DNA from: Siniperca chuatsi
Lineage: Eukaryota; Chordata; Actinopteri; Centrarchiformes; Sinipercidae
Direction: 5' to 3'
Length of the DNA stretch: 64,000 nucleotides
Assembly (NCBI RefSeq): GCF_020085105.1
Contig: NC_058046.1
Location: forward strand, 12,866,175 to 12,930,174
The notes below the pieces were generated by a model. The model saw nothing but the letters and a program-made list of their open reading frames with translations. It was not told the origin of the DNA and ran no database searches. Positions 6,386 through 62,717 of the stretch are shown here, one piece after another. Each line of letters begins with the position of its first letter. The first letter of the stretch is position 1. Both the position numbers and the translations under genes were made by a program.

Positions 6386-6985
6386 TTTAGCCATGCTAGC
6401 AGCTTGGTTCTGGGGATGGCAATGTCGAGGTCCAGACAGAAATATCTTGACAGCAATTAGATGGATTGCCATGAAATTTTGTACAGACCTTTATGGTCCC
6501 CAGAGGATGAATCCTAATGACTTAAGTGATCCCCTGACTTTTCCTATAGTGTCATTAGTAGGTCACAGTTTTCACTTATCTTTGTAAATTTGGTGCAGAC
6601 AGTCACTGTTCACAGATGATGAATCCTTGTGATACCCTGTATTTTCTTAGGTCAAACTTTAATTTTACGATACTTTGGTTTGTGACAAAATACCTGCAAC
6701 ATTCCCATAAGCCTCAGCTGTGTTTAGTTCTAATTTGCTAAATTAGCATGCTAACATGCTAAACTAAGATGGGGAACATGGTAAACATTATACCTACTAA
6801 ACATCAGCATGTTAGCATTGTCATTGTGAACATGTTAGCATGCTGATTTTAGCCTTCAGCTCAAAGCCTCAAAGTACAGCCTCACAGAGCTGCTAGCATG
6901 GCTGCAGACTCCAGTCTTGCTTTTTTGTTTGTTTTTGTTTTTTATTGAATATCTTCCACTCTCTAATTTGTCCTTTGACTGGTGT
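6386..6985 (+). repeat. TTAGCATGCTAA-rich dispersed repeat, copy 1
   Basis: Carries ordered blocks that recur at about 10.42 kb and 46.02 kb: 'ggatggcaatgt', 'agatggattgccatgaaatt', 'ccagaggatgaatcctaat', 'gatcccctgacttttcc', 'cctcagctgtgtttagt', 'gctaacatgctaaactaaga', 'catcagcatgttagcattg' and 'cctcacagagctgctagcat'. It is a family widespread in teleosts, non-coding and of unclear class. Copies 1 and 2 also share the tail 'tattgaa-atcttccactctctaatt', which the 46-kb copy lacks. Confidence 0.75.
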
Positions 6986-24456: not shown

Positions 24457-24663
24457 CAGACAGCGCCAACAGTCACTCACTCTCACACACAATCTGATCT
24501 CTCCTCCAATTCCCACCAGCAGTCAACTCAGCAGAACCTACAGCTCCTGTGATTCCCTGATTTCTGCTTTGATTCACCTCTGACGACTTGGAACTGTACA
24601 GGACTCTTACCTTTTGTTTTCTGAAAACGAAGGATTTTTTTAAAAGATCTTTTCCACTGCAGC

Positions 24664-25749
24664 ATGGAGATCCCCACTGTGGAATATGTTGATAACTATG
24701 AGTATTATGATGACAACGAGACTGCCTGTGACTTCTCAGAGTGGGAGCCCTCTTACTCCCTCATCCCGGTCCTCTACATGCTCATCTTCATCCTGGGCCT
24801 GTCAGGTAACGGCGTTGTCATCTTCACTGTGTGGAGATCCAAATCTAAACGTCGGGCTGCTGACGTCTACATCGGAAACCTGGCCCTTGCTGACCTCACC
24901 TTTGTTGTAACCCTACCTCTCTGGGCCGTCTACACAGCGCTGGGCTACCACTGGCCCTTCGGTGTGGCTCTGTGCAAGATCAGCAGCTATGTTGTTCTGG
25001 TCAACATGTATGCCAGTGTTTTCTGCCTCACCTGCCTGAGCTTTGACCGCTACCTGGCCATCGTGCACTCTCTGTCCAGCAGCAGGCTGCGCTCGCGGGG
25101 CACCATGCTGGCATCCTTGGGTGCTATTTGGTTCCTGTCCGGCCTGCTGGCTGTGCCCACGCTGCTCTTCCGCACCACCGTAAATGACCAAAACAGCAAC
25201 CGGACCACATGCGCCATGGACTTCAGCCTGGTGACCATGAACCAGAGGCACGAGTCCCTCTGGATTGCCGGGCTCAGCCTGTCCTCCTCTGCCTTGGGTT
25301 TTCTCCTACCTTTCTTGGCCATGACCATCTTCTACTGCTTCATCGGCTGCACCGTCACACGTCACTTCAACAACGTGCGCAAGGAGGACCAGAAGAAGAA
25401 GCGGCTGCTGAAGATCATCACCACACTGGTGGTGGTGTTTGCCATCTGCTGGACTCCCTTCCACGTCCTAAAGAGCATGGACGCCCTCTCCTACCTGAAC
25501 CTGGCTCCGAGCTCCTGCGGATTCCTGCGCTTCCTGCTGCTGGCTCACCCCTACGCCACCTGCCTGGCCTACGTCAACAGCTGCCTCAACCCGTTCTTGT
25601 ACGCCTTCTTCGACCTGCGCTTTCGTTCCCAGTGCCTGTGTCTGCTCAACCTGAAGAAGGCTATGCATGGCCAGATGAGCTCCATGTCGTCCACGCTCAG
25701 CGCCCAGACTCAGAAGTCAGAGATTCAGTCTCTGGCCACCAAGGTGTAG
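24664..25749 (+). CDS. aplnra: Apelin receptor (class A GPCR)
   Basis: An intact single-exon frame of 361 residues, the usual length and intronless layout of apelin receptors. The receptor binds apelin and Elabela/Toddler peptides at the cell surface. It signals mainly through Gi, and in fish guides mesendoderm and heart-progenitor movement. Visible features: an acidic, tyrosine-rich N-terminus with sequon N18-E-T; seven hydrophobic segments from about residue 33 to 315; the TM1 GN motif (49-50); LALAD (73-77); C104 and C183 for the ECL1-ECL2 disulfide; sequon N179; DRY 128-130; CWTPFH 262-267; NPFLY 309-313; a cysteine-rich segment QCLCLL after helix 8; and a C-terminus ending SLATKV. The N-terminus and the STLSAQTQKSE tail look more like teleost paralogue a than b. 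That choice is from memory, so the family is certain and the paralogue is not. Confidence 0.95.
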   Translation: MEIPTVEYVDNYEYYDDNETACDFSEWEPSYSLIPVLYMLIFILGLSGNGVVIFTVWRSKSKRRAADVYIGNLALADLTFVVTLPLWAVYTALGYHWPFGVALCKISSYVVLVNMYASVFCLTCLSFDRYLAIVHSLSSSRLRSRGTMLASLGAIWFLSGLLAVPTLLFRTTVNDQNSNRTTCAMDFSLVTMNQRHESLWIAGLSLSSSALGFLLPFLAMTIFYCFIGCTVTRHFNNVRKEDQKKKRLLKIITTLVVVFAICWTPFHVLKSMDALSYLNLAPSSCGFLRFLLLAHPYATCLAYVNSCLNPFLYAFFDLRFRSQCLCLLNLKKAMHGQMSSMSSTLSAQTQKSEIQSLATKV

Positions 25750-38145: not shown

Positions 38146-41913
<3,768 letters not shown>

Positions 41914-42732: not shown

Positions 42733-45700
42733 TCAGTTCAAGGAACCCCGGCAGCTATCTGCTCCACACAAACAAGGAATCTTTGTTTCCTCGATGGGAA
42801 ACTTGTAGTCGTATGTGATCTCTTCGTTGATGCTTATCGGCTGCCGGGAGTATATCACTATCTTCTTCTGAGACTCCACAGTGATGATCTTTGCATAACA
42901 GTTAGGCTGCAAGACAAAAAAAATCCTCAAATGCAAGTTTTGTAATGATAATGTAAAGTTATTTTGCATTAAGGATCCTATTAAACAAATCTTGATCTTA
43001 TTCAGAATCACTTCAGTCTCTAACCACAGCACCACCAGCTCTTACTCACATTGCAGCTGTGGTTGATAAACCTGGCCAAGTTCCCACATTTAGTAGCATC
43101 AATGATGGTGTCCTGATCAACTCGGAACAAATAGCTGCTTCCAATGCCCTCCTCCTCGTATCTCTGCTCCCTCATGTCAGCGATGCCCTAAGAAGAAAAA
43201 AAACAGATACGCCTATTCATAGTTGTTAATCACTATCACCCAACTCACACACCTGGAAAGCACCCAGAACAACCAGAGGATCCTAATGGTTCACTGGGGC
43301 AATTCAACGGAAACAACAAGGGGGAAAGTGGCTTGCTTAAAAGTTCGACAGTGACATTCATTATTTCCAAGCCTGGTCATTAGTTTGCTTTCGCTCATAC
43401 CTGTCTGATGATTTGGCCCACATACTCAATCACCATCTCATCTGCTGCTATAGGCTCCATTGCAAACAGGCCCCACTCATGGATGTGACTCCGGCTGAAA
43501 CGAATCCTCTTCTTTCGGAACTGATATAAGAAGATATGAAGACTTTTATGACAAAATGAGACATTTTCCATTTGTTAACACAGGCTCCAGCTGCTGCAAA
43601 TACTGACATGACAGTTAACTCCTTTCAAGTAATCATTCAAATTACTGTGTTCTACCTTGGGTAGAAAAGTCTGACCACAGCAAAGTCTGTGCATCTGGAC
43701 AGACACATTACTGTTGAGTTTATTTAAATGTGTCATATGTAGCCTCTTTGTTGTCATGCATCAACCTTTCAGTGCTAAAGCATGACATTCCCCACTATTG
43801 TATTGGTGTGATAGCAGCAATCTCAGCGGCAGTTATCTCAAAACCTCTGCAAATAAAACCGAAACTATCTGAATGGCTAGATACCACCAGGGCTTAGAGA
43901 AAATGTATATACATATACATATATACTGTATATATAACAAAGTTACATACACACACACAAACACAGTACCCGATGACTTATAATCTAATTAACAAACCTG
44001 GACTTACACACTGATAAAACATTGTACTGTTCCATTTGCTAGCAGTTCACATCAAATTCATAGCAAATTGTTAGTTGAAGGCAGGGTTTTTACAGTTGAG
44101 TGTCTTTACTAATACCTTACTAACCTTCAGCTGGTTGAACTTGACCAGGTCACTATCACAGCTGAAAGAGGACAGCAGGCGACGCTGTTCAGACCTGAAG
44201 TCAGATCCAGCACGCAGTGAGGTCGGATGCTGGGCTGGGATGCACATTCCCTGCTGAAATATATGTTGACATTAAGCACAAGAATGGAATAAACTGGGCA
44301 CTGAGATCATCACAATTTCCTCTCTTTAATACCTGAGTACTAGTATATGGAAGCTCAGTGGTCAGCTTTGTGTTGCTGAGGTATTTCATTTTGTCTTTCA
44401 TGCTGATTTTGTAGAAACCTTCACTGCGAGCAGAGCCGGTCCTGTGGTGTGGCAGCCAGCATTTGTGTTTCTCACTCTTCTCTGTGACGACTTTAGTCAG
44501 TGAGCAGCAATTAAGGATGTCAAGCACAGATGATGATATACAGTATTGATTGATCTGAATTCATCATTTATGTTTAAAATGTTTCAATAGCAAACCTTTC
44601 AAGGAATCCGCAACAGTGCCATACACATGACACTTAATTATTTAAGCCTTCTCAATTTACAGCGTTTAATTGTTTAGACTTTTTTCAAAAATATCAGAAT
44701 TTAAATACAATGCAATATTTTTCCAAAATAAATATGTACAATTGTGGAGTTAATCTAAGTCATTTGTGCATGGTACAATACAACTTTTGAGATAATCACA
44801 CCTATTAGTACATTATCAGTTACTTAGTTCACGTACTGTAAACTCACTCTGATCTAATTTAATTTGAACATGAAACTCTGTTTAAAAGGATATGAGGATG
44901 AGGTATCCACAGGGTGTCACTGAGCCACCCAAAGCTATTATCCTGCTCTTGCAGCCTTTCATACGTGCACTGCAGCAGCCTTGCATCTTCTTCATCCAGG
45001 CCCTCCTTCCAAACCCTATGAAGTATCCTCCTCTCCTCACAGAGAGAACGCCACCTGTGAGGACGACTGTGAGAGGAGAGAGAACCTGTGATTCTTTTAA
45101 GTGACTTCTGCCGATGATGGATTCTCCACCTCCTTTTTAGCCTCCTCAGCTGCTTTCTCCTCAATAAGGATTTCTCTGTCTCTCTCCTATTCTCCTCAAC
45201 CAGAAGCCCAGGCATATTCTCCAGTCCCTGCAAGGGCTTTGTTCTCACACCTGAACTGGTCCACATGCCTCTCCCTTCAGCAGAGTCAGATGAGGACTCA
45301 GACAGGCTCCATGGAGAGGACACTGAGATGGGAGAGCCTCTGAGAGAATCACATAACAGGGGCTGTAAGGAGGTCACCATTTGCGTTTTCCTCTTGTGGA
45401 CTATGGCTCTTCGGGGTAGGATGATGTCTCTTCCAGGAGTCTTTGGGGCTGAGATGTATGGATTCCTAGAGAGGCATGGCACAGGAGGTGGGCTGCTAAT
45501 TGTTGGGCACATCCCTAAGCTACCTTCTGACATGGTCGTCTCTCTGCCTGGTGTTGCCGGAGCTCTCCCAGAGCTGTACTGAGTCCATCCACGTCTATCC
45601 TCTCTACCAGGAGTTTTGGGCATATCCTGGTATGATAGGTATGAGACCGGGGGATCATAGGGAGCTAGAACGAGTTCAGTGCTTGTTGGAGAGAGGGAGA

Positions 45701-48700
45701 GCACCTCATCGGCAGAGTCCCCACTTTCCAGTTCAGCAACTATCCCTTTGCCTGGTGTTTGTGGTCGTTCCACCTCCTCCACTGCTGGGGATGTTGGTTT
45801 GCTTCTTATCAGAAGGTCAGGGTCACTGTCCATCAAGCAGCCAGTAGGAGTGAGAGGCCTCAGGTTTTCTATGTTCTCGAGTGACTCCACCCTCCATTCG
45901 GGGCTCTCCACCGCTACATCAAGGTGTGGCTCCACCTCTACACAGATAAAAAACAAGAAAATATTACAAAATCACATTTTCAACATTCTGTCAATACTTG
46001 TTCCAGTCCATTCCTTTTTAGCCATGCTAGGGATGGCAAAGTCAGTCTGTCAGTCGGTCCACCACTTTGGTCCAGACTGAAATATGTCAACAGTTAATAG
46101 ATTGCCATGGAATTTTATACAGAAATTCATTGTCGCTAAGAGGATGAATTCAGATTAAAATACCTTGACAACTATTAAATGGATTGACATGTTATTTGCT
46201 AGAGATATTCAAGGTCCTTAGAGGATAAATTCTAATTACTTTGGTGATCCCCTGACCCTCCCTCTAGCATCACCATGAGGTTGACATTTTTGGTTTTCAC
46301 TGAAATGTTGTCTCCATAACTATGGGACGGGACAATCATGGTGCCCAGATGATGAATTGTATTAACTTTGTTCCTCTGACTTTTTATCTAGCACTATAAT
46401 TAGGTGAATATTTCTTTTTGTCCAATACTTAAAGATACCTGCAAAACTAATGACATTCCCATCAGCCTCAGCTGTACTATGTGTTTAGTGCTAATTGGTA
46501 AATGTTAGCATGCTAATATGCTAAACATTGTGTTTATTATCACATGATAAACTCTATACCTGCTAAACATCAACATGCTAGCATTATATTTGTGAGCATG
46601 TTAGCATGCTGACATTAGCATTTAGCTCAAAGCACTGCTGTGCCTAAGTACAGCCTCACAGAACAGCTAGCATGTAGATTCTTAGTCTTGTTTAAGTTAC
46701 TAGGATGATCTGTAAACATGAAAACCATGCACATTGAGGATTCATGTATTACATATGTATACATATGTCAAGCAATATCTGTAAATGCTTTCATTGTTGA
46801 TTTTATCCCAATTAGGAAAACTGAGAAACTTTCTGGCATCTAATGGGAACTTTTTGAATGCCAATTTAGCAATTTCCTAATGCTGTGAACTATTTCTATC
46901 TACTGCTATACAGCATGCTGGACATATAACCTGGAAGTCCTATAGGTGACAGGAGCTGTAGATGATCCTGGGTTTCACTGGTTTGGAGCTCCATCACGGC
47001 ATCCAAGCCACAGGTGTCTTGTTGACAGGATGTGTACTGGTTCTCCGCGGATTCCTCCCTATAAAATAGATCTGACCAGTCCCGCAGGCCCAGCTCCAGC
47101 TGCGCACCAGGGGTTAGCGGGGCTGAGGGGGTGACGGGGGGCTCAAGCTCCATCGACTCTTCTGACGATATGACTATACACTCGCCGTTCCTGTCATCCT
47201 CGCTGTCGTCCTCCATGTCTTCATCTTCAGGACTGAGGTCAGAGTAGGACGAGTCCTCAAAACTCTCTGAAGAGAACGAGTCAGAGGAGTCGAAGTCTGA
47301 CGAGTACTCACTTTCCTCTGAGGAGCTGCTCTCTGCAAACCTCTCTATAATTGAAAAAAGAAACAAAAATTAAATACTTACGCATAGGTATGTGATTATT
47401 CATTAGTGTTCAGTGTTGCAACTGTATGATCTTTTAACGTACCGCTATCTAAGCACTGCACTCCATCACCAGTTTGGAAGATGACAGCATCTACATCCTT
47501 AGTGTGTTTTTCTGCCAACTCCTTTTCTTCCTCAGTATGATTACTTTCATCACCATCATCATGTTCCTCTCTGTCACACTTATAAGAGCACCAGTAATAT
47601 TATGCAGTCTTAGGAATTTCATACTTTCAGCATATAGACAGTTTATCATATTAATACTTTGTATAGATTCTGGAAAAGTTGCATGAGGAAAATCATTTTA
47701 AAAAATTGTAACCCACCACAGCCGATTATGGGCTTCTTAAGGAAATACATGTAAGATTTATATTTCAAGACATGACTTCAAGTCAATAATTTTGAAAGCA
47801 AAGTTTTCTATTAAAACTGTAAACAAAGTAGTAATTTAAATGTAACCTTTCATGCAAAATCCCTATTTACCAGGATTTGAGGATCATTATCAACTGGCAC
47901 AATGGTCTCCACTTTGTCTGATATTGTTCCTTCATCTTGAAGGGTGTTATCTTCTTCGTTCCCTTCATCATCACTGTCCAGCTCATGTGGTCTTGCATGT
48001 CTGCGTTTGGCTCTCTCAGATGTAGGTCTAAATATGTCATCTGCCTGTTTCACATCTAAAACCACATGAAAAGAGAGCAACACAGTTGATCAAGCTACAG
48101 TCTAGAATAGACAGTTGAGTTAATATATAATAAATGAGGATTAATTGCATTAAAAGCACTGACCAACACTTTCATGAGTAGAACATGACACATTTTCTAT
48201 CTCTTCTGATGTAGCAGGATCATCAGCTCTTTTCCTTTTTACCTGCATAACAATAAGTTATTTGACATAACATTAAGTTATCACTCACAGGTCAAATGCT
48301 GGTCCATTTCATATTACAGTAAGCAGAATAGTTTACCTTGAAGGACGGCAGTGGAGGTTTTCTGCCCTGGCCACTGATGTGACTGAGGGGATTTATTACT
48401 TTGGTCCTCTCTTCCACACTTTCTGCTCCACTTTTCAAAGGACAAACTTGCACCTAATGAATAAAACAACAATAATAATGAACCTACTGGCTCCATACGT
48501 GTATTGCCATCAAAATGACACAGAAAACATTTTTTTCCTCATTTATGTGATTTCATTGACCCCTTAATGAGTTAATAAAGGGTGTAAAGAACATACCTTT
48601 GTTTTCTTCTCCTGACAGTCCCACCAGTCCTCAAAAGCCTTGAAAGCATTCCCTTCAATCATTCTACGTGTAATGTCCTTCTTAATGATTGACCTCAGTT

Positions 48701-51700
48701 CATCCATGATGACTTCTAAAACTTTTTCTACTGTGACTTTATGAGGGTTTTCCCACACAAGCGGGTAGTCTGGTGGTGGCACAAAGGGGTTAAACCTGGG
48801 AAAAGGTGGAGCGGGCCACAGTAGTCGAGGGAATGGTAAAGGTGCACTGCCATGCCTTGGAGGATTCCCCTTATCCAATGGGCCTGCAGGCTGTATGGGT
48901 AAGGGGTACGTGTGCACGGGAGGTGGAACAGAAGGCGGCGCCATCAAAGGTTGAGGGGGTCTAAGAAAATTTGGTGGGGGAGGAAAAGAAGGAGAAGGTG
49001 GAATATGGGGAGGAGGAATGGGGATGACGGTGTGATGGCCCGGAGGTGGGATCCAGCCTGGAGGTGGGATAGGGATGGTGCCATTTGGCAGGCGCGGTGG
49101 GACAGGTGGAATAGATGGGGGAAAGAGAGGAATAGGGAAAGGGAAAGGGGTGACTAATGGATGGGAGCATCCAGACCTAATGGCAGGAGGAGCTTTGGAG
49201 GTAAGGAGATGAGTGGTGCTATTGAGAGAAGAAAAGTATGGAGGCTGAGGAAGAGAGGAGATTTCTTTTGTTGAGTGCTCCTTATCCTCATTTGCTGCAT
49301 GATGCTCCTGAATAAGATAGAAGAAGAAAAAACTGAAAGACTGATTTACAACAACATGAATACTTTTACATAGATAACAACATAATAACTACTACTTTTA
49401 TTGTCTTCATGATGTATGTAGAGGATTTACCTTTGGACATAACAACTGGAACCTTTCTGCATCTTTTTCATTGTTTACATGAGCCCTCCTTTCAAAATGT
49501 GTGAAATCAGATGGAGTGGGAGACTGGCAGTCTCTTGTAAGAAACGAAACAGCTTGAGTAGTTTCATCCTCTTCATTTTCAACGAGCGATCTTTGACTGA
49601 CATCCACCACATCATTGTGGGAGTGCTGGTGGCTGGTCGGAGTGTAAACAAGCGAGTCATCTGAGAGAGGGGAGGCATTGGCTGAGCAAGGTGAAGTTGG
49701 GCTGTCCTGAGAGTGCACATCAGCCTCCAAAGACTTTCTAACAAAGTATGAGGGTTCAGTACTCTGGCTGTTTATCAGCAAACTTTCAATGCGGGAGTCC
49801 AAACTCTCTACCTCTGTTTGGGGGCTACTAGGGGAACAGTTAACAGCAGGTGGAGATACGTCTGTTATGCATGCATGACCATCAGGTGGGGAGGATGCTG
49901 CTGTCTGCTGGTCAGCTGTGAAATTAATGCTCAGGATGCTAAAAGAGTTGCAGTTCAGATGTAAAGCCTTGGAGGTAGTGGGGACCACGTCTCTGGACTC
50001 CTGACAAGGAGAGGCAAGGTCAAAGGAAGACTCTACATTATTGTGAGTAGAGGATTGTGCATTGTGACCCCACAGTGCAGGGTGTTGGCTGCTAGTTTGT
50101 ATTTGGGTAGAGGGGGGGTGTGGTGGCAGTGGTTGGCAATGCTTCAAAATTAAGTTGACATCTGAGACTTCGCCGGATCCCCTGTGATACCTTGCTGGTT
50201 TACGATGGCAGAGCTCTCGTCTTAAAGGTTTGTGAACACTAAAGGTGGAGGGCTCCCCCTGGAGGATCGGAGTTGCCTGAAGACTGGAGTAGCAAGAGTC
50301 CTGAGAGAGAGGAGTCGCAGACAAGCAAGGAGTGTGGGGGGTTCCCTGAGAACGTGGTGTAAGCCCAAAGCTGCAAGGTGTATCCTGCCAAATACTGGAG
50401 TAGGCTGTGTCCAGAGAGAGGGGTGTAGCGATGCTGATGGGGCTGGAGGCACTCCCCTGTCGCTGCGTGGCTGCGCTGCCCTGTAAGAGATGGATAATAC
50501 AGAGAAAACAAGATAACAACTGAGAAATATCCTTAAAAAACATTAATTTAACAGCTGGTTTCTAAATATTGAATACACGATTACTTCAATGTTCACACTA
50601 TTATAAGGAGCTGTAAAATGTTTACCAGCAAACTGTCGATTACGCTTTGAAGAGCTCGCCCACTGCTGCCCACTGGCATCCAAGGAGTATAAAGGCCACG
50701 TAAGAGGAACTGGAGATATCGTGCCCTGTTTTCACCTGAGGAAGGTTGCATGTTACAATTAATTCAGTTCAACAAGAGTGACATTTATACTTTCAATACA
50801 TAATAATTTGAGGAATTCCTAAAATCAGCGTTACCTTTAGGATCAATTTCCACGTGAATAACATTTCCCATCACTGACGTCTGATGGAGGTGCTGAACAG
50901 CGTCTTTTGCGGCCCTCACTGTGTCAAAGACGACCTTTGCAATCCCTAAATGCTTCTTGTTCTTAGGATTGTAAAATATTTCCACTTCTTCAATGTTTCC
51001 ATATTTATTGCACATATTAGTCAAGAACGCCTCCCTTACATTGTCATTCAACCTGGAAAATGTCACTTCTTTGGGAGGAACAGGTCCAACATACCACTCA
51101 TCAACCTGAAAGGGTATAGGTAGACAACAAGAACTATTATTAATATCATTATTAGCATGGTTATTATGATTATTATGGTGATTATAAAGATCAGTGGCGT
51201 AATGTGACTTTTACTCATGTACTCTACTTAAGTACAAATTTGAGGTACTTGCACTTAACTTGAGTATTTTCATTTCATGCTACTTTATACTTCTACTCCA
51301 CTACAATTCAGAGGGAAATATTGTACTTTTTACACCTGCATTCATTTGACAACTGTTTCTAGTTACTTTACCAATTAAGAGTTGCATACACAACATATGA
51401 AGACCTTATATAAAATATGATGCACTGTTATAGATTAAACTACCCAACAGTATATAAACTTAGAGCTGAAATTATTTGTTGATGAATCGATTAGTTGATT
51501 GACAGAAAATTAACACAATTTTGATAACTGATTAATTGTTTTGGAATTTTTCGTGCAGAAATGCCATTTCATGGTTCCAGCTTCTGAAAAGTGAGGATTT
51601 GCTGCTTTTTCTTGTCTTAAATTGCAGTAAACACTTCTGAAGTTAGCAATTTGAAGGTGTCACTTTGGCTCTGGGTAATTGTGATGAGCACAAGTTTTAC

Positions 51701-52421
51701 AAAACAAACAATCCCTCGCTTATTCATCAGCAGATTCTTCCATAATGAAAATTGTCATTAGTTGCAGCCCTATATAAAATTGTTAAAAAGTAGCTGCTTA
51801 CACATTAATGCATGAATAATAAAGAGCTAATCATATATCAGTCACAGGGGCCATATTTCTGCATTGAATACTTTTACTTTTGATACTTTAAGTACATTTT
51901 CCTGATAATACTTACATACGTTTACTGAACTAACATTTTCACTGCAGGACTTACTTGTAATGGAGTATTTTTACAGTGTGGTATTAGTATCTACTTTTAC
52001 TTTAGTAAAGGACCCCTCACAACTGAAAAAGATTACCTTCAATTTAGGAACCAAAAGGTCAGTCTTGTGGCATTTGCTCCACAGGCGGCAGATACGGGGA
52101 TCTCTGACTGTATCCACAGGAAACAGACCTAAGTCCTCAACCTGTTCAGGTAAACAAGACCCATCATCATCATAATGGAAAACATACATGCTTGTTTGGC
52201 GCAATGTTATAGCGGGAAAATGTGTTGACAGGCAATTATCTATGAAAGACGGAGACAATAAACAAATATTTAAAAATGCTCACGGGTATGTTAAAGTGTT
52301 GCCCATCATAACGGTACACTTTGTACAGGCCTTTTGTCAATGCAGGGTCAATAATCAACTTGCAACTTCTCCAGTGCTGAGGCGGTGTCTCTCTCTCAGA
52401 AGTTTGTTTTTCGCTTTCCAT
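42733..52421 (-). CDS. setd1b: Histone H3K4 methyltransferase SETD1B
   Basis: Catalytic subunit of the nuclear SET1/COMPASS complex. Seventeen coding exons, in transcription order: 52421-52284, 52141-52037, 51105-50835, 50735-50626, 50480-49431, 49307-48597, 48453-48337, 48242-48164, 48055-47871, 47578-47443, 47344-46931, 45937-44870, 44490-44333, 44253-44125, 43520-43401, 43187-43050, 42906-42733. They total 5,103 nt in frame (1,700 residues). In order: [13 protein letters not shown] near the N-terminus; an RRM (about 85-165, HLGIAKVVF); a Ser/Pro-rich region; a proline-rich run (about 600-720); an acidic serine tract (about 970-1020); four TPGR/K motifs; the WDR5-binding WIN motif [12 protein letters not shown] ([14 protein letters not shown]); and post-[11 protein letters not shown]. 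The 5' UTR appears split, with acceptor before 52436 and donor at 52659. The exon 12 donor (t|gttcaa) is weak, so that junction is uncertain. SETD1B rather than SETD1A is judged from linkage to hpd and orai1. Confidence 0.93.
46020..46690 (+). repeat. TTAGCATGCTAA-rich dispersed repeat, copy 3 (setd1b intron 11)
   Basis: Same blocks as the 6.4- and 10.4-kb copies ('accactttggtccagactga', 'catcagcctcagctgtacta', 'atgttagcatgctaatatgc', 'cctcacagaacagctagcat'). It fills most of the 993-bp intron between the exons ending at 46931 and starting at 45937. It lacks the 'atcttccactctctaatt' tail of the other two copies. Confidence 0.75.
51191..52013 (+). mobile_element. 'TACTTAAGTAC' repeat filling setd1b intron 2, with nested hAT MITE
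   Basis: Left part (51191-51458) and right part (51771-52013) contain 'actctacttaagtacaaatt', 'tacttctactccactacaat', 'agattaaactacccaacagt', 'gcttacacattaatgcatga', 'gatactttaagtacattttc' and 'taatggagtatttttacagt'. These are blocks of one very common fish repeat whose ends are inverted. The repeat ends about 24 bp from the splice donor of setd1b exon 2, so this intron is almost entirely transposon. A second element is nested at 51459-51770. Confidence 0.75.
51459..51770. mobile_element. hAT MITE nested in another repeat, 8-bp TSD
   Basis: Flanked by perfect direct repeats tatataaa (51451-51458 and 51771-51778). The interior starts with ttagagctgaaattatttg and ends gtcattagttgcagccc, the pattern of the fish 'GGGCTGCAACTAA' / 'AGAGCTGAAA' elements. 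An 8-bp duplication is the hallmark of hAT transposition. It is related to the copy at 30953-31266. Confidence 0.8.
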
Positions 52422-53674: not shown

Positions 53675-54221
53675 GAATATGTCCCATCTGTGTTCGACAA
53701 AAGTGCTGTCAATTCGAGGTATAGAGGGCAACAGTTTCAGCTACATCTCATCTTACCTCCATCATATGACACTGCAGGTAAGTAAGATCTCATTCTTTAC
53801 TTGCACTTTTGATATCAGCTTGATGAACAGGTAACCCATGTTTGTGGAAGGCGTGCCATGTTATTCCTCAACAGGATCAGAGAAATACAAGCTTGCCCTT
53901 TTGTCTTTGGTCAAAATAACCTAAACACTACAATTATGTTGGTTAAAATGACCTGAGATGTTTTTTAATTGTTCTTTTATTTATTTATTCGTTATTTTAG
54001 TTTTAGTTTTGATTCATTACGAAGCCCTGAATTTTTTTGGCAATCATGATGGTAGCATTGGCAGTGGTGGACCTTGTAAGTTCAAATGCAGGTTTTGATG
54101 TTGTTAATATCAAGTCAAGAGGACGATGACCACCTGTTGCCTCTCTCCTACCACAATGTTAACATGGTGCTGGTCTGCTACGATGTCGTGTCCTTCAAGC
54201 TTCGATAATGTCTTCATAAAG
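53675..54221 (+). pseudogene. rhof: Decayed Rho GTPase, two exons (rhof relic)
   Basis: Two + strand exon remnants align to a Rho-family GTPase. Exon A (53675-53777, acceptor tttttttcag, donor g|gtaagt) reads YVPSVFDK … YDTAG, matching the switch I segment and G3 motif, but the stretch between is altered in length and sequence. Exon B (about 54115-54221, donor aag|gtattt) reads QEDDDHLLPLSYHNVNMVLV then CYDVV, matching the segment after DTAG. Lesions: exon B lacks a base at its acceptor, so the DTAG-Q junction is out of frame. The reading frame also shifts after CYDVV, so DNVFIK is only recovered in another frame, with a stop (taa) in the first. The P-loop exon and all exons after DNVFIK are not found. 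The divergent position beside setd1b and before orai1 is that of RHOF in human, so I call it rhof by synteny. Confidence 0.7.
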
Positions 54222-56838
54222 GTATTTCTAAGTTGTGTCTTTAATGTTTTTGTTCTGGTTGAGGAGAATATCAGAGTTGGTGTAAATTCACTTTTAACTA
54301 CTCCAATTCATTTCTTTAAGACAGTTTAAAATACATTTTGTGTAAGATAATAGTGTTTCCTTGTTTGTTTTTTGTGGCTTTTTTATACATGCAAATGTTT
54401 AAAAAGAACATACCAATAAAACATGAATATAAAACTCACAGATCATCTCAGATGTTTTTTTATTCTCAAACCGGCAACAAAAAGAAACAGTCCTGGTCAC
54501 TCTCAACAGGTTAAAAAGCCGCAGCATTGTTTCGCTGCTAACAACACACATAAGCTTTACTTTAAAACTGTGCATTGACACAAGCAGTGGAACCTCTCTA
54601 TTTACAGCAACATAAACTGGGTTAAAAAAATAAACCACAAAAATGAACCAAAGAAGCATGCCTTTGTTTGCAGTGATCTGTTTCTAAAGAAGGCACATGT
54701 GGCGAGTGTCCCGGAGTGTGTGCAGTTGGCCTGAATAAACCTGTCTTCATTTCATCCCTTGTGAAAAATAAAAAATAAAATAAAAAATACTCTTAAAGCC
54801 ATCAACAATTCTTTGGAGAAGCATGAAAACCATTTTACTAAACAGTCTGTAAGTTTTTAATCCCTTCTAGCTCCTTGTTCTCTATTACGTGTCACAGAGA
54901 TATTATCATCTGGTCGGGACAATTTGAATGCAAATTTTGGGAGCTTGTGTCCTACAGAAGCTGTTACATTACCATGACTATAAACCATGTGTAGGGGGTG
55001 GGTAATACAGACAAAACTGTATAATATATAATATTGCAATAATGCCCACAGCATTACCTTTCTATAAATACAGTATGTTACAATATTAAGAATTCAAAAT
55101 CACTTGATAAAAATGCAAACTCATGTTCATCACATAGATCAAAATGGTTGTACTGTGTTTGTTGACCAAAAGCCAAAATATAACATGTATATATACTCAT
55201 GTTGTGAAATACACTAATTCAACATATTTAAGGAAGAATATTATGGGATATGATATAATGATATGAAACTTTTGTCATGACACCATCACATGAGAGAACA
55301 ACTGATATTGACAAATTTGGCATCCAGCTCTAAATATGTGCACATTCCCTCATTTGAGCTTGGACAGAGTTTTTGTACCAATGTTAGAGTAAAGACAATA
55401 AAAAAACACACCCCATATTCCACACTTCAACAATCTTTAACATAAACAATGTGTGAACATGCTCAAGCTTGTAAACTATGAAAAGTACAAAACATAAAAA
55501 CTGAAACACATTTCCAATACGCGCATGCTTTGTAATAATACATTTAACAATACTTCTTCAAAGCCAGTAACCATTTGTATGGATTACAGTATATTGGAAT
55601 TGCAAAAGCAACGTGACATTGAGCAAATTCCTCAAACTTTTACCCCGAGATTGATTTTACAAGAGGATGACTGGATAAAGAAAAATGAGTGTTGAACACA
55701 GACTCCACCACCAGGCTCCAAAACGTGTCTTTAATAACTGATTTTTATTCTCCCAAAAATATGTTCACTGCAATAACACACTTTGGTTTGGCATTAATTT
55801 TTCTTTTGCATCAGATTTCACATGAATACTGTTGGCTGTTAACATTAAGATATTATTTTTGTTTTGTTAAAGATAAAAACAATAGCTGGAAAGGACGGGA
55901 GCAAACATTTGACACAACCTAAAACAAAACTTGGTAACTAAAATAAAAAGTCCCTACAAGTAACCATTTAGTCCAGTGAGTATGGACGTGTGTGTATCAA
56001 TCAAACCAAAGCACTAAGGCCTTTTAAAAGCATGTAACTTGTTCTATAATTTTGGTTTTAAAGCATGCGGACAGTGATTCTAATATAACTGATATTTCAG
56101 TCAGACAATTCACACCTTGAATATGAACATCTGTATTGGTGATAAAGGCTTGGTAATGCTTCCTACAAAGTCTAATTTAAAGCCAGGCAAATGTGAGAAC
56201 AGGAGAAACTAATGCAACCCACCATGGGACACAGAATAAAGTGTGAGTTGTGTAAACTACACATAGAAAAGCCCAGACAGAGCAGCACCACAATTTTTCT
56301 ACCTGAAGTAAAAACAGGCTTCACCGCAGACTTCATTTTTAGTGAATATTGAAAATAAGTCCTGGCTTTGTCGAGTTCTATTCAAACAAGGAAGTGCACT
56401 TTTAACGTATTCGTTAACGTCATTGTTGATCTCATATGGATCTTCCTCAGGTCAACCATTTGACCCAGATTTCCCTGGTGTTGGTGATCTCTATGACAGT
56501 ACATGTGTGAAGTCCTCAAGTGGCTTTAGTCCTGAAATATGTAATATTACAATACGATATGATATGTCATTACACAAGCCACTGAAAAGTTTAGTGCCTC
56601 AGAGCAAAAGATTTACCTTCAAGTTAAAGGTAAAGCTATTTTCCTAAAATATGATGTGTAGAAGTTTGTGAACATGCATTATCTAAGTGGACTGAGTCAA
56701 AACCTGCAACGCTCGACGGATGAAGCTTGCAATTCCAAAAGAAGCATCTGAGCACAGTTCATAAACATAAAAATAAAGCTTCTATAAGAGATTTCCCATG
56801 TTGAATGTCCGCTGCTGCTGTATGCTAGCTGGCTATAA
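54222..56838. other. Region between Rho relic and orai1 (orai1 3' UTR likely)
   Basis: AT-rich and non-coding in both strands as far as I can see. Human synteny would place TMEM120B and MORN3 here, but no exon of either is recognised. Part of it is probably the long 3' UTR of orai1 (- strand). The polyadenylation site cannot be chosen among several tttatt hexamers. A + strand frame at 56342-56647 has no support. Confidence 0.45.
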
Positions 56839-59383
56839 TCAAGGGTAATGGACAGCGGACTTCAGGTCGTCATTCTCAGCCCTGTGGTCCAGCTGGTTCT
56901 GGAGCCGAATGACCTGCTCCAGCTCTCGGATCTGTCGGTCCGTTTTGTGACTGACGAGTGTGCGGTAAAAGTGGACGGCGAACACGATAAAAACGATTCC
57001 AAACGGCACCATGATGCAGGTGGAGGCGATGGCTGCGGCCTCACCAGAACTTATGGTGCCATTGTTTTCTTCAGTGGCGCTTTTGAGAGGCAAGAACTTC
57101 ACCCAGCACAAGAGCATCACCTCGGTCAGAAAGAGGAGGGTGCCGATGACAGTGGAGAAAGCCCAGGCCAGTTCTATGTGGTGGTGCATGCGCTCATGAG
57201 GAGACTCGTTGACAGAGTTGAGGTTGTGAACGTTGCTGACAGCCTCAAGATTAGGGAGGATGCAGGTGCTGATCATGAGGGCAAAGAGGTGTACCGCAAC
57301 CAGGACTGTGGTACAGGCACTGAAGGCTATCAGCAGCCCTGGAGGATACTTATAATCCCGCTCCAGCTGTACTTCCACCATGGCAACCTGGGAAAATCAT
57401 ACAAGAAAAATGTCAATATTTGCAACAAATATAGGTAGAGAAAGTCTCTGCATTAATCTTAATTTGCATATTGGGCACATTTTATTATGATTGCTTTATG
57501 TACCTTCAGAGCAGTGATTTTTGCATCTGCACTCTTAAGGTGGTTCTTTGTGTTTGTCAAAAAATTAAGAAGCTTTGGAATTAAAATTGGGGCTGATGTC
57601 AGTGTTACATGAGTCTTTACTAATGTAGTAAACTGGCACTGAAAATGTACTTTTTTCTCCAGCTGAGAATTGAATATTAACATATGACTATGCAAAAAAA
57701 AACCAAACATCTTACCTACCTGAACCCCTTTCAAACCATCGGTAAGAAACACAATAAACGTGTTTGTACATAAAATAATAAACAAAGACAACTTTGATCA
57801 CTGCTTGCTTTCTTCCTGTTGATGCCTCTACCACCTCCACCACACAGCAAAGACAGCTATATATATCAATCAAATCAAATGTAACAATAAAAAACGTCTC
57901 AGAAGTGGTTTCTTCTGCTGAATCTTACCAAATAGCAATTTGTGGTGAAAAGTTTCAATTTACATGGTATTATAAGAAGATTGGAGGGCCCCTGAAACCT
58001 TTAAAAAAGCAGCCATTTGTTTAGCCTTGCTTTTGCTTAGTTTTAGTGTCTTATTTAACCTTTATTCTTTTTACGTTTTTAGCTTGATGTCTGCATTTCA
58101 TGTCTTTCACGTGCTTGTTTGTCTTTTATTGTGAGGCACTTTGTGACATCTGCCTTTGAAAGCTGCTATACAAATAAATGTTCTTACTTACTTACTTATA
58201 AGAGCAGGGCACCTGCATTACTGTAACTGCATTGCTTACATACAGATTTGAGCATCAACTGTACATTGATGTAGAAATAAGTGAATGGTGAGATAGAAGA
58301 ATAGGTGACAAGTCCATATCTGATTAACCCAAATGAATCCGTTATTTATATACTTATATATGGACTTTTTCACGAATAGTCTATGGACAGAGGAGCATTA
58401 GAATATACATTTTTATATATATTCATATACTTTTTTTGTCATGGTGTTTAATACTTTGCATGTTTATGTTCATTATTAGCCTGCATAGTTTCACAAATAT
58501 CTTACTGCTGACTATTCTAATTTTGTGGATTTTGGATTATTATTGATATTTTTATACTCACACCTTTATTGATATGTTATACTTGCACTCCTTCCTACTT
58601 TACACTGCAACTGCTGCGCAACAATTTCCCTCGTGATAAATGAAGTTCTATCTTATCTTAATAGCGTCATAAATATTGGCAGTGTTATACACTTCAGAAA
58701 TAAATTTGGCTATTTCTCAACTTTTTGTATGTACATATATGAAGTTGGTGTTATTTGTACGTTGAAAAATAAAATAAAAAAGGATTTTGTTTTTTTTTTA
58801 AATGGTGTGGACGCTTCAGCAGCGCTGCGGTCTACTTGTTATGGCGGAAGACAAACCCGGATTTGAGGGTGTGTAAGCAAGAAGCCCTCTAAAGTTTAAA
58901 TAAACTGTTTTCTTGGTCCGTTATCATTGCACTGTTGCACCGTGACATAGGCTACACCTCGTGCAAACCCACACATGACTAAAAGGACGAGTAGTGTTTC
59001 TTTTTGATATTGTGACCCTTTTGTATCAAGTACTCAGTTGACGACGCTGTCCTTACGGAAACAAAACGCTCGTTAATGGTAAAAAATTAAGGCACGGGAG
59101 CCGTCATTAGGCCTGGAAAGGGTCATGCTCGCCACAGCCCTTGAAAACAATCATCTGCGTCACATATGTACCTGCGGTTAATGCCGATGGCCTAAGTTGA
59201 GTTTGCATTCATGCAGTAAACATTGTGACTACTGTAACGGAAACCAGTGAAGTCAAAAACATAACTTACCATCGCGAATCCCGACAACAGAGCTGAAGTG
59301 CGACTGGTGGCTTTTAACTTGGCTCGACTCAAGTACAGTTTTCTCCATGACAGAGCCTGCATGGAGTGCTCGTTTAAACTCAT
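56839..59383 (-). CDS. orai1: ORAI1, calcium release-activated calcium channel subunit
   Basis: Pore subunit of the store-operated calcium channel in the plasma membrane, opened by STIM proteins when endoplasmic reticulum calcium falls. Two coding exons: 59383-59270 (donor atg|gtaagt) and 57387-56839 (acceptor cccag), 220 residues. Residue 1 ([13 protein letters not shown]) corresponds to human Met64, so numbering is offset by 63. Arg28 equals human Arg91 (gating, SCID site) and Glu43 (VAMVEVQLE) equals the selectivity-filter Glu106. Four hydrophobic segments follow: about 25-45, 56-80, 105-130 and 165-185. A sequon NGT lies in the TM3-TM4 loop, and the C-terminal helix (RLQNQLDHR) is the STIM-binding segment. 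The proline/arginine-rich N-terminus of the long human form is absent. An in-frame TGA lies eight codons upstream of the start, so this exon cannot extend. Frames on the + strand over exon 2 are antisense shadows. Confidence 0.96.
57388..59263. other. orai1 intron
   Basis: A single intron of about 1.88 kb with a canonical gtaagt donor and ccag acceptor. It contains a LINE/SINE-type tail at 58121-58199 and AT-rich sequence. No other gene. Confidence 0.75.
58121..58199 (+). repeat. Non-LTR retroposon 3' tail
   Basis: The words gaggcactttgtgacatctg and aaagctgctatacaaataaa followed by a (CTTA)n run are a degenerate form of the 'AAGCACTTTGTGA … AAAGTGCTATATAAATAAA' tail shared by fish LINE2-like and V-SINE elements. 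Confidence 0.6.
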
Positions 59384-61086: not shown

Positions 61087-62717
61087 ATGCAACCACAAGG
61101 GGGCACAAGCCAGTGTCTTCTTGTGCCAGTCCCAAGTCTGGATAAATGCAGAGGGTTGTGTCAGGAAGGGCATCCGACGTACTCGGTGTGTCATCTGGAA
61201 AGAGGAAAGTGGACAAGGAGACTTGGTGGCGGAACGAGGAAGTTCAGGAGTGTATACAGAGAAAGAGGTTAGCTAAGAAGAAGTGGGACACTGAGAGGAC
61301 TGAAGAGAGTAGACAGGAGTACAGGGAGATGCAGCGTAAGGTGAAGGGAGAGGTGGCAAAGGCAAAACAAAGAGCATATGAGGACTTGTATGCTAGGTTG
61401 GACACTAAAGAGGGAGAGGTGGATTTGTAGAGGTCGGCCAGACAAAGAGATAGAGATGGGAAGGATGTGCAGCAGGTTAGGGTGATTAAAGATAAGGATG
61501 GAAATGTATTGACAAGTGCCAGGAGTGTGATGGGAAGATGGAAGGAGTACTTTGAAGAGTTGATGAATGAGGAAAATGAAAGGGAACGAAGAGTAAAAGA
61601 GGTGACTGGTGTGGAGCAGGAAGTAGCAAAGATTAGCAAGAGTGAAGTGAGGAGGACGTTGAAGAGGATGAAGAGTGGAAAGGCAGTTGGTCCTGATGAC
61701 ATACCTGTGGAGGTATGGAAGTGTCTAGGAGAGGTGGCAGTAGAGTTTCTGACTAGTTTGTTTAACAAAATCTTGGAGAGTGAGAGGATGCCCGAGGAAT
61801 GAAGGAGAAGTGTACTGGTGCCAATTTTTAAGAACAAGGGAGATGTGCAGAGCTGTGGCACCTACAGAGGAATAAAGCTGATGAGCCATACAATGAAGTT
61901 GTGGGAAAGAGTAGTGGAAGCTAGGCTAAGGGCAGAGGTGAGCATTTGCGAGCAGCAATATGGTTTCATGCCTAGAAAGAGTACAACAGATGCAGTATTT
62001 GCTTTGAGGATGCTGATGGAGAAGTACAGAGAAGGTCATAGGGAGTTGCATTGTGTCTTCGTAGATTTAGAGAAAGCGTATGACAGGGTGCCGAGAGAGG
62101 AGCTGTGGTATTGTATGAGGAAGTCTGGAGTGGCAGAGAAGTATGTTAGAGTGGTGCAGGACATGTATGAGAGCTGTAAGACCGTGGTGAGGTGTGCTGT
62201 AGGTGTGACAGAGGAGTTCAAGGTGGAGGTGGGTTTGCATCAAGGATCGGCTCTGAGCCCCTTCTTGTTTGCTCTGGTGCAATGGAGACTGTGGAAAAGA
62301 GGTGAAGAGGCGAGTGCAAGCAGGTTGGAACGGGTGGAGAAAAGTGTCAGGTGTGTTGTGTGATAAGAGTATCAGCAAGAATGAAAGGAAAGGTGTTCAA
62401 GACGGTGGTGAGACCAGCGATGTTGTACAGCTTAGAGACAGTGGCACTGAAGAAAAGACAAGAGGCAGAGCTGGAGGTAGCAGAGATGTTGAGGTTCTCT
62501 TTGGGAGTGACGAGGACGGACAGAATCAGGAATGAGTACATCAGAGAGACAGCTCATGTTAGACGTTTCAGAGATAAAGTCAGGATGTAGTGAGAGAGGA
62601 CATGAAGTTAATTGGTGTGAGTGAAGAGGATGCAGAGGACAGGGTTAGATGGAGGCAGATGATTCGCTGTGGCGACCCCTGAAAGGGAACAGGAAAAGGA
62701 AAAGAAGAAGAATAGAG
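61087..62717 (+). mobile_element. Non-LTR retrotransposon (LINE) relic, 5'-truncated
   Basis: A 1,631-bp piece flanked by direct repeats tgtagctcta (61077-61086 and 62718-62727). One frame runs through most of it and encodes part of a reverse transcriptase: GKAVGPDDIPVEVW (from 61679), [23 protein letters not shown], motif [14 protein letters not shown] (62058-62096) and motif [12 protein letters not shown] (about 62233). Two in-frame stops interrupt it (TAG at 61428-61430 and TGA at 61800-61802, where Trp is expected in EEWRRS). Directly after FLFAL an internal deletion of roughly 80 codons, judged against the family as I remember it, removes the catalytic FADD motif. Later parts ([29 protein letters not shown]) continue in another frame. 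The endonuclease domain is absent. The clade is probably RTE-like, by memory only. Confidence 0.88.

Follow-up and report, generated by a model that had tools for sequence, protein, structure and literature searches.

Two exon remnants of a putative rhof pseudogene on C5 and an open rhof gene in a collinear block on C18 of Siniperca chuatsi

A 64-kb stretch of the Siniperca chuatsi genome (C5:12866175–12930174; hereafter the window) contains, between setd1b and orai1, two + strand segments that read as Rho GTPase and correspond to exon 2 and exon 3 only of rhof. Judged from their sequence, these segments constitute a rhof pseudogene and not a rhof gene, because exons 1, 4, and 5 were not found. 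The relic is almost certainly what is left of one of the two rhof genes produced by the teleost whole-genome duplication, that is, a case of ohnolog fractionation. No gene is missing from the animal on this account: C18 has an open rhof, a tmem120b, and a morn3. The first-pass annotation of the window had read the relic as the death of the gene in this lineage; that reading used the one human locus for comparison and left the teleost genome duplication out of account, and it is contradicted by the open five-exon rhof on C18.

The relic is located ~1.25 kb from the start codon of setd1b, divergent from that gene and on its orai1 side, as expected of rhof. Its neighbors are the C5 duplicates of setd1b (42733..52421, − strand), in which SET and RRM exons were recognized and for which C18 has matching exons, and of orai1 (56839..59383, − strand), whose two coding exons include an exon 2 with 80% identity to its C18 match. 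In tblastn of the C18 rhof exons against the whole 64-kb window, the relic was the top match for both exon 3 (E = 2e-7) and exon 2 (E = 3e-4), and the order, strand, and phase of the two matches were all as expected. Comparison of the setd1b–orai1 intervals of C5 and C18 by blastn gave a match of 117 bp at 65.8% identity (E = 1.3e-8) and a second one of 30 bp at 83% (E = 0.014), and nothing besides the two relic exons at E values up to 1. The two Rho GTPase remnants on the + strand reported in the first pass are confirmed at their place by both searches. Rfam gave 0 matches over the window. An assembly gap as the cause of the missing parts was rejected, the window being without any N.

The borders of the relic exons were set by alignment to the open C18 rhof. 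The exon 2 remnant (53675..53777, + strand) spans 103 nt versus 88 nt in C18, a net insertion of 15 nt, and retains both its acceptor (TTTCAG) and its donor (GTAAGT), with a phase 1 junction as in C18 rhof. The exon 3 remnant (54114..54221, + strand), which was found by tblastn and blastn as well as by alignment, has 108 nt versus 110 nt in C18. Its 3′ splice site (54112..54113, + strand) is lost, with AA in the place of the AG of the C18 gene. A 2-nt deletion directly after CYDVV causes a frameshift, beyond which PSSFDNVFIK is read in the next frame up to the retained donor GTATTT. In the QxDYDRLRP stretch common to the canonical Rho segments compared, the Tyr and both Arg residues are altered. 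The broken exon junction, the frameshift after CYDVV, and the end coordinate noted earlier all hold on this alignment. Beside the lost acceptor, 6 nt into exon 3 (54114–54119), the bases CAAG, the last of them at 54119, may form a cryptic acceptor that is in frame.

Searches of the genome (719 Mb, 65 contigs) with the relic and with the orai1 of the window both lead to C18. The 60 kb of C18 compared (C18:13480001–13540000) are collinear with the window for setd1b, the rhof exons, and orai1, with strands alike, and the two collinear blocks lie on different chromosomes, C5 and C18. The first-pass annotation had suggested that an intact rhof be sought elsewhere in the genome, and one of 209 codons was found in this block. 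The C18 rhof (C18:13518407–13521040) has five exons, GT-AG introns, and an open frame that ends in CVVL. In the PDB, it is matched best by RhoD (E = 2.7e-69); RHOF/Rif is a member of the RhoD–RhoF subfamily of Rho GTPases. Between rhof and orai1 stand tmem120b (C18:13523723–13527650, − strand) and morn3 (C18:13531664–13532630, + strand). At 13.499–13.536 Mb, C18 accordingly carries setd1b, rhof, tmem120b, morn3, and orai1 in the human order, which an excerpt of one paper gives as ORAI1, MORN3, TMEM120B, RHOF, LINC01089, SETD1B, HPD (PMC11867633).

Several other features of the window were observed. Segments 6754–6893 and 46403–46644 both match one spot near C18:13494500 and are probably copies of one repeat. 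The exons at 40882–41356 (+ strand), which we take to be hpd, the expected neighbor of setd1b, are unmatched in the 60 kb of C18 compared, and Pfam assigned no family to 40882–41130. A single-exon open frame of 374 amino acids at 24625–25749 (+ strand) presumably encodes a rhodopsin-like GPCR, most like the apelin receptor. Beyond orai1, two adjoining open frames at 61431–62363 (+ strand) are, as we assume from their motifs, a fragment of a non-LTR (LINE-type) reverse transcriptase.

The relic does not provide an intact GTPase with a P-loop and a CAAX end. When rhof exons 1, 4, and 5 were sought in 52.4–57.0 kb of the window, the scores were 15.8, 18.1, and 16.2 bits, all under a line of 21.5 bits that shuffled sequence exceeded in 0/100, 2/100, and 0/100 trials, respectively. 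No P-loop or C-terminal rhof exon was detected near the relic by tblastn of the window or by this targeted search, in agreement with the first-pass annotation. In simulations of decay to 66–70% identity, exon 4 was recovered in 83–91 of 100 trials, exon 5 in 78–94, and exon 1 in 41–55. Judged by these recovery rates, the negative result is fairly firm for exons 4 and 5, which have probably disappeared or are badly eroded, but weak for exon 1, which may be too decayed for detection.

The interval 54222..56838 would be expected to hold rhof exons 4–5, tmem120b, and morn3, and none of these was detected in it. From the relic downstream to orai1, the distance is 2.6 kb on C5 versus about 15 kb on C18. 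Seven tmem120b and three morn3 pieces compared with 52.4–57.0 kb gave nothing above chance in 10/10 cases, no fewer than 10 of 100 shuffles reaching the best score of each piece. For tmem120b and morn3, a comparison of all open frames of C18 with the window likewise gave scattered weak matches only, among the matches listed. Genome-wide, the 22 TMEM120 matches include none on C5, and those off C18 are on C7 and C14; of the four morn3 matches, the sole one off C18 is weak and located on C20. The earlier remark that TMEM120B and MORN3 are not visible stands for the C5 interval, where no trace of them was found, but its suggestion that the segment may have moved is not supported, as both genes are in the C18 duplicate block.

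The divergence of the flanking genes indicates that the two blocks are old. Pooled over eight stretches of setd1b and orai1, the C5–C18 comparison gave a pS of 0.79 (saturated) and a dN of 0.147, with differences at 114 of 172 fourfold sites. Saturation was seen in seven of the eight stretches; one stretch in the SET domain is unsaturated, with a dS of 1.03. Saturated synonymous sites fit the age of the teleost event, although they show great age and not the event itself. A recent segmental duplication is therefore excluded by the pooled synonymous saturation, together with the fact that the relic DNA matches only itself in the genome. In the excerpts available from the literature, two setd1b genes are described for most of six fishes examined (cod, medaka, two pufferfishes, stickleback, and zebrafish) and credited to the teleost-specific duplication (PMC3348894), and zebrafish setd1ba adjoins rhoF with a lncRNA between them (PMC6347452, PMC5024134). 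Synteny, saturation, and the published setd1b pairs suggest that the C5 and C18 blocks are most likely old duplicates from the teleost genome duplication.

The time at which the C5 copy died was considered from its differences from C18 rhof. There are 40 differences in 47 alignable codons (34/36 from exon 3 and 13/29 from exon 2), with 9, 5, and 26 at the first, second, and third codon positions, respectively; the middle of exon 2, which could not be aligned, and two codons at the deletion were left out, which biases the counts toward conservation. The measure of dN/dS proposed in the first pass gives a dN of 0.19 and a pS of 0.71 over these codons. The residues are equal at 31/47 positions, a value reached in a fraction of 0.0004 of 5000 simulations in which 40 changes were placed randomly on the C18 codons. 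The dN is little above the 0.147 of the surviving neighbors, which, being other genes, are a loose yardstick. Because the differences fall mainly at third codon positions, the C5 rhof was probably functional and held by purifying selection during much of its existence. Conserved Rho residues are altered in the relic at 4 of 23 positions, with a best fit of ~0.09 neutral changes per site (roughly 0.02–0.25); the 23 residues, identical in rhof, RhoD, and RhoA/B-, cdc42-, and TC10-like segments, were chosen after the relic had been seen, and atypical Rho segments (Rnd-like and others) deviate at some of them. At an assumed neutral rate of 3–8e-9 per site and year, the death of C5 rhof would fall roughly 10–30 million years ago, with limits from a few to some 80 million years, as an indication only. 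The death may have been late relative to the duplication. Of the first-pass statement that the loss may be recent, this much is retained, given the dN and the 26 of 40 differences at third positions, but what was lost is not the rhof of the animal.

The assignment of the relic to rhof has to be weighed against an origin from another Rho gene, of the cdc42, TC10, or RhoA type, by recent segmental duplication or retrocopying. The first 33 columns of the exon 3 remnant are not decisive: the score is 111 against rhof (19 identities) and nearly as high, 103 (20 identities), against cdc42-like genes. Exon 2 alone found no Pfam family, and its best PDB match, TC10, was not significant (E = 0.084). 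For exon 3 alone, Pfam gave Ras under the cut-off (E = 0.19), and PDB gave a RHO1 (E = 0.0033) with cdc42 about equal; such single-exon PDB searches show Rho, not which Rho. Over all 36 columns of exon 3, the scores are 120 with rhof versus 102 with cdc42-like genes. Asp at column 23 is shared by the relic, rhof, and RhoD only and is Ser in 14 other Rho segments compared, and Ile at column 35 occurs in the relic and rhof only, among the eight segments compared there (rhof included). In a tree of exons 2–3 with 11 rows, one of them a chimera, the relic and C18 rhof group with a support of 95/96; the program marks the relic as a long row, and support for the larger group including RhoD is weak (51/87). 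The sequence is nearer to rhof than to other Rho genes, by a small margin on exon 3 alone. A retrocopy was rejected because the remains of an intron and of splice sites are present. In addition, a genome search with the relic DNA returned itself as the only match, and its place and strand are those of rhof. An origin from another Rho gene, which the first-pass annotation had named as grounds for abandoning its reading, is therefore most improbable and was not borne out; the rhof identity and the ancestral place it had proposed are upheld.

Two further explanations accept the rhof identity. The relic in its ancestral place, with neither tmem120b nor morn3 detected in the interval, is also what would be seen if the sole rhof gene, along with the RHOF–MORN3 segment, had been lost or relocated in the lineage. 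There is hardly any room for this explanation, because C18 has another setd1b and another orai1, with an open rhof, a tmem120b, and a morn3 between them in the human order; loss of rhof from the animal is already refuted, and loss of one duplicate is what remains. Alternatively, the exons may be retained as part of a non-coding transcript, for example, a conserved lncRNA divergent from setd1b. Exon 2 still has both of its splice sites and exon 3 its donor, and excerpts of two papers describe a lncRNA divergent from setd1b and beside rhof whose conservation extends from fish to human (PMC5024134, PMC6347452). However, blastn of both setd1b–orai1 intervals found no shared block but the exons, a late death accounts for the surviving similarity, and zebrafish lnc-setd1ba mutants are described, again in an excerpt, as viable and fertile (PMC6347452). 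We regard this retention as improbable. Similarly doubtful is the fuller scenario in which a working second rhof beside orai1 would have persisted through most of the period after the duplication and died not more than some tens of millions of years ago, with exons 2–3 perhaps now belonging to a setd1b-divergent non-coding transcript.

We propose the following account of the fractionation of a duplicated rhof. The teleost duplication would have produced two setd1b–rhof–tmem120b–morn3–orai1 blocks, one now on C5 and the other on C18. The ancestral five-gene set is complete on C18, and the C5 block kept setd1b and orai1, its tmem120b and morn3 leaving no detectable trace. With RhoF supplied by the C18 copy, the C5 copy would have been dispensable through redundancy. 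C5 rhof was inactivated, exon 3 having lost its acceptor and frame; exons 4–5 (probably also exon 1) would have been deleted or eroded, and the remainder would now be decaying as non-coding DNA.

Comparison with human at a single locus can make a half-lost duplicate look like gene death. The value of the present case is modest: it would be a datable late ohnolog loss if sister fishes retain an intact rhof here, in which case its branch of the tree and the succession of its lesions could be read off. Among the literature matches listed on rhof, the Rho family, and ohnolog loss, titles and abstract openings make no mention of a rhof pseudogene, which is no proof of unpublished status.

The relic and C18 rhof are alike in the sequence of exons 2–3, in their intron phases, in their orientation divergent from setd1b, and in having orai1 beyond. 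Unlike C18 rhof, the relic has no exons 1, 4, and 5 that could be found, its exon 3 lacks the acceptor and is frameshifted, and its conserved switch-II residues are altered, so that a GTPase is not encodable in its present state. That one of two ohnologs is lost, whether early or late, is well known. As in other fractionated teleost ohnologs, one collinear block carries the gene and the other carries a remnant or nothing, and the synonymous sites are saturated. An ohnolog lost this long ago usually leaves nothing recognizable; unlike the usual cases, two exons of the C5 rhof are still recognizable, which suggests a late death.
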